Assembly: GCF_000702605.1 (NCBI RefSeq)
Contig: NZ_JNIR01000001.1
Location: forward strand, 1,416,501 to 1,480,500
DNA from: Exiguobacterium acetylicum DSM 20416
GTDB lineage: Bacteria > Bacillota > Bacilli > Exiguobacteriales > Exiguobacteriaceae
Direction: 5' to 3'
DNA: 64,000 bases
Shown here piece after piece: positions 12,297-54,935 of this stretch; within the stretch, counting starts at the first letter, position 1, and each line of letters begins with the position of its first letter. The notes below the pieces were generated by a model. It was given only the letters and a program-made list of their open reading frames with translations, was not told where the DNA came from and did no database searches. The translations under genes and the position numbers were made by a program.

Positions 12297-12471
12297 CGAT
12301 TAAAAAACAGGAATTATCTTCCTTAAGTCGAACACCTAATCATACGAGGGAATGTTTCTACGGTTTCACTTATCAGGCTATAGCTTTTCAATCGCCTAGC
12401 GTGTAAAGTGGCATCAAGAGCATTTCTTTCGAAAAGACTGTGTAATTATTGTGCAACTGGAGGAGATTCAT

Positions 12472-13386
12472 TTGAACAAACGGGTACAATCGAACGTCAA
12501 AGGCGTTGACGTCAAAGGATTTCCTAAGAATTCAACCCCTGCCCCGAAGAAATACATCATGTTCGTCGACGAAACTGGGACACCGAAAGGGAATACACAA
12601 TTCAACTTAACGGGTGTCTTGATGGAATATAAATATGCCATCGATTCGGATGAGACCGGTGAACCAAGTCCGCTTCGTCAACGTTTGATGGATTTTAAGG
12701 CAAAAGTTTTTGAAGATCCACATATTCCCCTTCATTTGAAAGAGATTTTAAAAGCTGAGCATCCGTACGGTAAAGAAGATGGCATCACGATCGATATGCT
12801 ACGACATTTCTGGATCGCCTTGCCGGAATTTTTAGTTGATATCGATTGTACGATCGTCAGTGTCGAAGTCGATAAACAGAAGCTACAAGACTTCTTCTCG
12901 ACACCGAAGGATCCGTACGTCGTCGCCTTCGCCCATCTGATGAAGTCGTTTTATTCCTTCCTCGATGAGACAGAAGCAACGAGTGCGCGTGTCGTCCTTG
13001 AAAGCCGTGATGATTATCAAAACTTGCTCATTCAAAAGGCGTTCTTCGATATCTTCAATTCGGGAACGGTCCATCTCGACGTCGAAAAAAGCCGTCAAAA
13101 AATCAAAGGCTTCATCTTTGCTGAAAAAGACAGCGACCTCTACCAATCTGGTCTTGAGATTGCCGACTTGGTCTGCTTACCTTTATCTCGCGTCCGTCGT
13201 GGTGTCATCGAGGTAAAACCACGGTTTGTCCATTATGGGGACGAAAACCGGATTTTTAAAGCCATCAAAGATAAGATTTACATTCGACGCGATAGTCCGG
13301 ACCAAGATTTCCGAAACTGGGGATTCAAAAAAGTACCGATCACGAAAAAGCGTCGTGAATGGTCCGATACTCCTTGGAATGGATGA
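12472..13386 (+). CDS. DUF3800 domain protein
   Basis: A 304-residue protein. Residues about 25-40 carry KYIMFVDETGTPKGN, the DUF3800 opening with conserved Asp-Glu. The C-terminal part carries LYQSGLEIADLVCLPLSR, the conserved second motif with Asp. The family is thought to have an RNase H-like fold and is often seen in mobile or defence contexts; activity is unproven. The start is TTG at 12472 because GGAGGAG lies six bases upstream. It interrupts the yppE-nth order known from B. subtilis and ends at a strong terminator, so it looks like an accessory gene in a core block. Confidence 0.8.
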   Translation: MNKRVQSNVKGVDVKGFPKNSTPAPKKYIMFVDETGTPKGNTQFNLTGVLMEYKYAIDSDETGEPSPLRQRLMDFKAKVFEDPHIPLHLKEILKAEHPYGKEDGITIDMLRHFWIALPEFLVDIDCTIVSVEVDKQKLQDFFSTPKDPYVVAFAHLMKSFYSFLDETEATSARVVLESRDDYQNLLIQKAFFDIFNSGTVHLDVEKSRQKIKGFIFAEKDSDLYQSGLEIADLVCLPLSRVRRGVIEVKPRFVHYGDENRIFKAIKDKIYIRRDSPDQDFRNWGFKKVPITKKRREWSDTPWNG

Positions 13387-53979: not shown

Positions 53980-54864
53980 CTATACACCAGTTGTCGGAGT
54001 GAGTCGACTTAACCAACTTTTCCAAGATTGATCGTCTGCACCAAGTAAATGTGGACCATATCGTTCCGGGAGCTGATCGACCGCATAACCACCAAGACCA
54101 ATCTCAAGATCCGGAAAATCAGACATCAAACGTGCTAACGCTTCATCAAGTAACGGTAAATGATCCGATAACGTGCAGGAAAGAATAACGGCTTTCGGTT
54201 GCAGCTGATGCGTAACCGTCACCAAGTCCTGAACCGGTATACCGGAACCGAGGAAAATGACATCAAATCCAGATTGTCGTAAATAAAGTGTAAAGAAAAG
54301 TAGTCCGAGTTCGTGTTCTTCTTCCGGCGCACAAACACAGACGATTCGTGGTAAGAACGGATTGATCGGCATCTGTAACGACAATGTCGAAAGACGAGCT
54401 CTCAGAAATGCCGTCGCAAAATGCTCATGCGCAATCGTAATCTCACCCGACTCCCACTTCACTCCAATCTCATGCAAAAGTGGACCGACGATGTCCTGAA
54501 TGACTTTATCGAAGCTAAACATCGAAAATGCTTTATTCATAATATCATGCGCGTGACGTTCTTCGAAGTTCGTCAATGCCCGGAATAATTGATCTCGCAG
54601 TTCGACTCCGTAATCGTGCGGTACTTCAGCCCGATTGACCGGCATTTCATACAACTGGATTGCTTTAGAGACAGACAATCCCTCTTTTTGTTTATCGACG
54701 ATCCAGCGTAATTTCGCGACGTCGTTATCACTATAAATGCGATGTCCGGATTCACTTCGATCCGGATCGAGCACCTGATATCTCCGCTCCCAAGCACGAA
54801 TGGTCGTCGGGTTGAGTCCCACTAACGCAGCGACTGCTTTGATATTATATTTCCCACGATCCAT
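53980..54864 (-). CDS. MerR-family regulator with B12-binding domain (CarH/LitR-like)
   Basis: A 294-residue regulator. The N-terminal MerR winged helix is YNIKAVAALVGLNPTTIRAW, ERRYQVLDPDRSESGHRIYS. The middle B12-binding cap has W-x9-E-H (KWESGEITIAHEHFATAFL), which in CarH holds the upper face of adenosylcobalamin. The last domain has E-x-H-x2-G (CAPEEEHELGLLFF), the lower His ligand motif, and a Rossmann-like fold with LGSGIPVQDLV. These are the light-sensing residues of CarH photoreceptors. No pigment genes lie nearby. Single gene, target unknown. Confidence 0.88.
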   Translation of the reverse strand: MDRGKYNIKAVAALVGLNPTTIRAWERRYQVLDPDRSESGHRIYSDNDVAKLRWIVDKQKEGLSVSKAIQLYEMPVNRAEVPHDYGVELRDQLFRALTNFEERHAHDIMNKAFSMFSFDKVIQDIVGPLLHEIGVKWESGEITIAHEHFATAFLRARLSTLSLQMPINPFLPRIVCVCAPEEEHELGLLFFTLYLRQSGFDVIFLGSGIPVQDLVTVTHQLQPKAVILSCTLSDHLPLLDEALARLMSDFPDLEIGLGGYAVDQLPERYGPHLLGADDQSWKSWLSRLTPTTGV

Positions 54865-54935
54865 GCATCGTGCCTCCTTCCCCTTCCTTTCTAGTATACG
54901 CTGAAAGGAAAAAAATCTCCGTTCACAATGTGCCC

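Follow-up and report, generated by a model that had tools for sequence, protein, structure and literature searches.

A Predicted CarH/LitR-Type Photoregulator of Exiguobacterium and a Conserved Operator-Like Array Upstream of an Spx/MgsR-Family Gene

Introduction

In the literature, CarH is a switch of carotenoid genes, and the CarH/LitR protein of Bacillus megaterium reportedly controls carotenoid production. The operators of CarH proteins are described as tandem 11-bp repeats of the form nAnnTnnACAn or nnnnTnnACAn (PMC8156234, PMC9304148); there are three boxes in Thermus thermophilus (PMC8156234) and four in the Gram-positive B. megaterium (PMC8156234, PMC9304148). The cobalamin motif of CarH and class I LitR is given as D/ExHx2G/Px41SxT/Vx22-27GG, and an intact Wx9EH sets CarH apart from CarA (PMC9304148). 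According to the same source, an upper histidine ligand and an Arg-Asp pair are found in many, not all, CarHs. CtMerR from Chloracidobacterium thermophilum (8jbs, 8jbt) is a green-light-responsive cobalamin MerR protein without the bis-His ligand, and the SignatureFinder light signature used in that work is a mining filter rather than a family definition (PMC11796333). An orthologue of the protein considered here, Eab7_1666 from Exiguobacterium antarcticum, has been annotated as a cobalamin-binding MerR protein modelled on 5c8a, with CarH mentioned, and has also been linked to B12 synthesis (PMC6016940).

In this report, we analyze a carH-type gene from a 64,000-nucleotide stretch of the genome of Exiguobacterium acetylicum DSM 20416 (the window). 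What is new here is a CarH-type operator array before an Spx/MgsR-family gene, the E. antarcticum orthologue being already in print. No paper naming both CarH and MgsR was found in the literature searched; MgsR and a photoreceptor are mentioned together in one paper, on cell-fate technology.

Results and Discussion

Identification of the CarH/LitR-Type Protein

The minus-strand open reading frame called in the initial annotation exists as claimed, and the MerR domain, W-x9-E-H, and E-x-H-x2-G that had been read from it are all present (Table 1). The three Pfam domains are each above the cut-off, with E-values of 5.4e-15 (MerR_1), 1.6e-16 (B12-binding_2), and 5.8e-12 (B12-binding). A phmmer comparison with Thermus CarH gave E=1.4e-35, and the likeness to CarH is therefore not due to chance; among solved structures, the closest are those of Thermus CarH/LitR. 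Using an AlphaFold2 model built from 9 sequences (mean pLDDT 84.9), the top 12 Foldseek matches were all full-length Thermus CarH. Conservation is highest in the MerR domain, where 93% of positions are invariant among the 19 Exiguobacterium orthologues.

Table 1. Coordinates of the carH-type gene, its domains and motifs, and the adjacent regions
Feature	Position in the window	Strand	Remark
carH-type gene, 294 aa	53980..54864 (including stop codon)	-	ATG at 54864
MerR DNA-binding domain, residues 5-72, with R-A-W-E-R-R-Y	54649..54852	-	Pfam
Four-helix cap domain, B12-binding_2, residues 89-161	54382..54600	-	Pfam
W-x9-E-H motif, residues 137-148	54421..54456	-	Glu138 at position of Thermus upper-ligand His132
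B12-binding Rossmann domain, residues 173-277	54034..54348	-	Pfam
E-x-H-x2-G, residues 182-187	54304..54321	-	His184, predicted lower cobalt ligand
carH upstream region	54865..54935	-	TATACT-like element, without CarH box array
MecA-family (YpbH-like) gene, PF05389	53331..53921	-	directly downstream of carH; conserved-block member, no partner role claimed

The full cobalamin motif, counted on the sequence and in the alignment, is E182-x-H184-x2-G187-x41-S229-x-T231-x26-G258-G259, and the MerR domain carries the RxWERRY by which CarH and class I LitR are recognized. W137, E147, and H148 are invariant in 19/19 Exiguobacterium orthologues, and these three residues together with H184 and G187 are invariant in a nine-row alignment that includes two Nitrospirota proteins. 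Two residue features of the Thermus-type CarH are absent: the upper-ligand position after the Trp is Glu138 in all 19 orthologues, and the Arg176-Asp201 pair of Thermus aligns with Glu183 and Gly208. Three of the four motifs of the light signature (GxxW, EH, GxxH, GxxxP) are matched; the Gly of GxxH is replaced by Glu in 18 and by Asp in one of the 19 orthologues, and is kept in 6/11 sister-genus proteins examined. The score against the NCBIfam CarH equivalog model NF052513 was 169 bits, below the curated cut-off of 400. Assignment to the CarH/LitR type is borne out by motifs, fold, and phylogeny, and alignment with CarH and LitR proteins is best against Thermus CarH. We file the protein as CarH/LitR-type on the basis of its motifs; light sensing is a plausible prediction.

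Other CarH-like proteins of the Bacilli depart further from these motifs. The relatives L140, L142, and L143, from family f8, have lost the Trp, the Glu-His, and the ligand His and have kept the DNA-binding domain; the decayed copies L142 and L143 are still near MecA and Ddl. A second CarH-like group (L146-L154) has Q-E for E-H and Pro for the Gly after the ligand His, and two of its members (L152, L154) adjoin crt-like genes.

Distribution and Gene Neighborhood

An orthologue of carH is present in 19/19 Exiguobacterium genomes and in 38/38 genomes of the order, which comprises two genera in this set. A protein of E. indicum HHS 31 matches the E. acetylicum sequence at 100%. Matches with E<=1e-15 were found in 133/398 genomes of the class, including these 38. 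From Bacilli outside the order, 40 loci of other families were fetched, and in 12 of them (L115-L126, 11 families, 40-46% identity) carH resides in the same gene block as in the window. With labels assigned by similarity to the window ORFs, RecQ is upstream in 10 of these 12 loci; on the downstream side come MecA, immediately adjacent in 9, and YpdA, found in 11; GudB is present in 8. The initial annotation had implied that carH is an oddity of this block. This is not the case; the position is conserved, and because relatives occupy the same block across Bacilli families, carH is an old resident of it. A profile search of the B. subtilis control genome gave no match to PF02607, in keeping with the initial remark that the B. 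subtilis block has no such gene.

In the tree, the Exiguobacterium proteins group with the block-resident loci and the decayed f8 copies (92/97, an open fork), and the relatives found directly before crt genes (L132, L133, L141) lie apart, within a 99/99 clade. Second CarH copies occur as well: genome G128 holds, besides the block-resident gene, a distant copy (L136, G128:C46) preceded by a three-box site of its own, and another second copy is found in genome G271.

Operators of the Relatives

In a shuffle test for three tandem boxes, 16/40 upstream regions of the other-family carH genes and 5/12 of the block-resident ones reached p<=0.05; one of the 16, L140, whose cobalamin motifs are decayed, may be a chance positive. 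A box matrix was trained on 36 of the 40 loci, omitting L140, L142, L143, and L145 for their decayed cobalamin motifs. Its consensus is AAATTATACAA, and the mean score over the best 22 loci was 22.8 bits, compared with at most 11.6 bits in 20 shuffled sets and 11.1-17.8 bits at spacings of 8, 9, 10, 12, 13, and 14 (10 rounds of refinement for the real set, 6 for the shuffled sets). The family thus probably reads a CarH-type operator, in which three TnnACA boxes follow one another at 11 bp and which is often placed at the promoter of the gene itself, with Exiguobacterium as the exception.

Autoregulation in Exiguobacterium is unsupported, as 0/16 Exiguobacteriaceae upstream regions reached p<=0.05 and no box array precedes the gene itself. 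The carH upstream region is conserved in 18/19 aligned Exiguobacterium genomes, the exception being the E. flavidum-type L032. Within the 64 kb, the only site above 9 bits by the box matrix (11.6 bits) is at 12427-12459, where the ORF 12451-13386 begins.

Operator-Like Array Upstream of mgsR

A recurrent three-box site (TATACA x3 at 11 bp, <=3 mismatches; TGTACAATAGTTGTACAAAAGGTGTACA in E. acetylicum) was found in 19/19 Exiguobacterium genomes, in every case preceding the same Spx/MgsR-family gene. In E. acetylicum the array consists of the three tandem 11-bp boxes AGTTGTACAAT, AGTTGTACAAA, and AGGTGTACA within 31 bp (G000:C1:497053-497083), ~1 Mb from carH. The third box, TGTACA, is the predicted -35 element, 17 bp from TATAGT; the promoter scan at this gene is weak, with 3 promoter-like sites against 2.2 in shuffles. 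The array was also recovered with the published consensus, a search independent of the trained box matrix. AnnTnnACA x3 with <=1 mismatch gave 57 matches in the 38 genomes of the order, compared with 11 for the backward control. There were 18 exact matches, one per genome in 18/19 Exiguobacterium genomes, and the G005 site has one mismatch; no site matching better than the mgsR array was found in the 38 genomes. The action at a distance put forward in the initial annotation is supported by this array, and the genome-wide operator search that it had recommended did yield one recurrent operator-like site, at mgsR and not at pigment genes.

The predicted target passes TIGR01617 (Spx/MgsR family; 110.5 vs 75.05 bits), with CxxC present as C-T-S-C, and also the Spx subfamily model (127.5 vs 123). 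The gene is flanked by an MBL-fold hydrolase and a ComGA-like ATPase, presumably the position of yqgZ/mgsR in B. subtilis, and we call it mgsR rather than spx because of these neighbors and the gene order of B. subtilis. Coregulation of comG with mgsR is weakened by a terminator-like hairpin between mgsR and comGA in E. acetylicum.

The second-tier sites of the same genome, each with one mismatch, fall close to the beginning of a chemoreceptor-like ORF, right at that of a NUDIX-like ORF, and next to a 5S rRNA (names given by eye from the sequence); we regard these as chance or unclear. A different site, TTTACA x3 at 11 bp (L182:5816-5843; G000:C1:743816-743843), is present in 19/19 genomes and in E. 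acetylicum precedes a DeoR-family-like ORF, where it could reflect DeoR autoregulation.

In the sister genus, 8/19 genomes were examined: four were caught by the consensus pattern, and four of the other 15 were located by position. In all eight, two TnnACA boxes lie 11 bp apart before mgsR (-93 to -81 relative to its start codon); another box, TGTACA, is found 22 bp further up in six genomes and 21 bp in two. The four promoters found by position have matrix scores of 11.9-17.9, the L227 score not falling on these boxes.

Outside the order, six genomes with a block-type carH were tried; the block was read directly in G295, G390, G148, and G322, and for G271 and G224 in a same-genus genome only. 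mgsR was located in four of the six, lying outside the fetched stretches in G224 and G322, and three of these four have a three-box array at mgsR (G295, 27.0 bits; G148, 28.0 bits; G271, 32.5 bits). G390, with block-resident carH and mgsR, has no TnnACA box within 150 bp before mgsR. In 800 kb of the six genomes, 6 matrix windows exceeded 17 bits; 4 of them, at 3 places, are at mgsR, and the remaining two fall inside ORFs. At spacings of 9, 10, 12, and 13, the corresponding numbers were 3, 1, 0, and 0, the 10-bp one scoring 21.1. Of the 5 exact sites that the plain motif TnnACA x3 gave in the 800 kb, 3 are at mgsR; none of nine control spacings (7-10, 12-16) gave more than one site, and the reversed motif gave 1. 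All of the mgsR promoters compared come from carH-carrying genomes. The mgsR upstream region is shared with a divergent ORF in G295 and G271, and this ORF could also be a target.

Carotenoid Genes and Cobalamin Setting

No carotenoid genes are close to carH, as had been noted; the phytoene-synthase (crt) match of this genome is ~1.1 Mb away. Each of the 19 Exiguobacterium genomes carries a gene of the phytoene-synthase family and has its crt cluster in synteny. The earlier suggestion of pigment genes as the target is not supported, as no CarH box array was found at the E. acetylicum crt cluster and the recurrent site precedes the Spx/MgsR-family gene instead. The box matrix found no 3-box site above 8 bits in the crt region of this genome, and no box array was found in three crt upstream regions aligned across 19 genomes; crt promoters were accordingly rejected as direct targets. 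In other Bacilli, the crt genes immediately following the CarH relatives L132, L133, and L141 are homologues of the Exiguobacterium ones, and these relatives have three TnnACA boxes with 11-bp spacing upstream (3-box shuffle p 0.005-0.025). Among the 12 block-resident loci, three genomes (G128, G216, G390) have no match to PF00494. A phytoene-synthase match is also absent from G271, which rules out the pathway of that enzyme as the target in this genome, but G271 does have the second carH copy.

Where the plus-strand crt operon of E. acetylicum begins (L078:10250-10330), GTTTAC or GGTTAC-N15-GGGAAA, near-constant in 18/19 genomes, precedes a methyltransferase gene; this element resembles a sigma-B promoter. 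For E. sibiricum, RpoD, RpoE, and RpoH are listed in PMC2615787, and the sigma factors are counted in PMC3171730.

In 19/19 Exiguobacterium genomes, no protein other than the carH product exceeds the PF02310 cut-off; six of these genomes have one further match that falls short of it. The search for a cobalamin riboswitch in the 19 genomes was negative. All 19 have a PduO-type adenosyltransferase match; the one at G007:C1:2695760-2696173 is partial, with an in-frame TAA. The enzyme is also matched in 33/33 further genomes, those with decayed CarH included, and in the B. subtilis control, and as a nondiscriminating marker it was rejected as proof of AdoCbl use.

Proposed Regulation and Alternatives

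We consider it probable that the protein, a member of a block-resident Bacilli clade, is a repressor of the CarH/LitR type that depends on AdoCbl, represses mgsR in the dark, and releases it in the light. The binding of AdoCbl, the response to light, the identity of CarH as the array binder, and the direction of regulation are inferred as follows. In the dark, AdoCbl bound on H184 and capped by W137, E147, and H148 would assemble a DNA-binding oligomer, which would occupy the three 11-bp boxes reaching over the mgsR -35 element and block mgsR. Light, or a lack of AdoCbl, would release CarH and turn mgsR on. Against this circuit stand the missing array in G390, the sister-genus boxes of which only two are in strict 11-bp register, with low matrix scores at the promoters located by position, the second CarH copy of G271, the few matrix sites above 17 bits at other spacings, and the replacement of Thermus His132, Arg176-Asp201, and the GxxH Gly.

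These replacements are the starting point for a reading that we judge unlikely, namely a B12-independent (CarA-like) repressor without a light switch, or a sensor of cobalamin status rather than light. This reading is also favored by the f8 relatives, whose cobalamin motifs have decayed around a retained DNA-binding domain, and by the isolation of the protein as the sole PF02310 member over the cut-off with no cobalamin riboswitch found. However, Wx9EH is invariant in all 19 orthologues and the ligand His is constant in the alignments; by the distinction drawn in PMC9304148, an intact Wx9EH indicates CarH and not CarA. CtMerR, with Arg for the upper His, still responds to light and monomerises (PMC11796333). 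The adenosyltransferase match in 19/19 genomes points the same way, though it is present also where the motif has decayed. The classical arrangement known from Thermus and Myxococcus, with the far-off crt operons under direct dark repression by CarH, appears quite improbable. It gains from the universal crt cluster of Exiguobacterium, from the boxed relatives that head homologous crt genes, and from a database-predicted link of the E. antarcticum orthologue to phytoene synthase, as given in PMC6016940. These crt-linked relatives form a separate clade, however; the E. acetylicum cluster has no array by scan or by alignment of 19 genomes, and three of the block-resident genomes have no PF00494 match.

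The array itself could be owned by another regulator. That it belongs to a different direct-repeat regulator or to MgsR itself, with the CarH target elsewhere, is rather unlikely in our estimation. Spx-family proteins are not known to bind tandem 11-bp repeats. The mgsR gene of B. subtilis is positively autoregulated (PMC7235348), G390 has CarH with no array at mgsR, and the mgsR promoters were surveyed in carH-carrying genomes only. On the other side, the boxes match the CarH operator in both sequence and 11-bp spacing, whether compared with the published consensus or with the carH promoters of the relatives, and no better-matching site was found in the 38 genomes of the order.

For dark repression of mgsR by CarH, the prediction reduces to a single 31-bp candidate site. 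If true, this clade controls an Spx-family stress regulator, as is suggested also in G271 with no phytoene-synthase match, and light reaches the Bacilli stress response by a second, chemically unrelated receptor with AdoCbl supply as an input. It would also give a reason for the retention of carH in 38/38 genomes, though no other PF02310 protein passes the cut-off in the 19 Exiguobacterium genomes. More tentatively, and with the balance close to even, mgsR rather than carotenoid genes may be the conserved primary target of the block-resident clade across many Bacilli families, providing a B12-based light input (including green) to the general/redox stress response in parallel to YtvA-sigma B; in Exiguobacterium the operator for autoregulation would then have been lost, with mgsR remaining as the one strong site.

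Comparison with Known Systems

The protein shares with CarH/LitR of T. thermophilus (5c8d, 5c8e, 5c8f, 3whp) the domain order, W-x9-E-H, the cobalamin motif, and RxWERRY, and the predicted mgsR array has the same number of 11-bp boxes as the Thermus operator. The two proteins differ in overall sequence (~30% identity by Foldseek), in the residues at His132 (Glu) and Arg176-Asp201 (Glu/Gly), and in the predicted target, which is mgsR and not crt. The tandem 11-bp repeats of the predicted array are also a feature of the B. megaterium CarH/LitR operator. The crt-linked relatives L132, L133, and L141 have motifs and an operator type as in the block-resident clade and differ from it by their separate clade and their crt neighbors. 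CtMerR is among the Foldseek matches to the model, at 22-23% identity.

In B. subtilis, the flavin LOV protein YtvA is the blue-light input to sigma B. The YtvA-sigma B route also feeds light into the general stress response, for which blue light is named as a stimulus in PMC7235348, whereas the Exiguobacterium protein would act via the transcription of mgsR.
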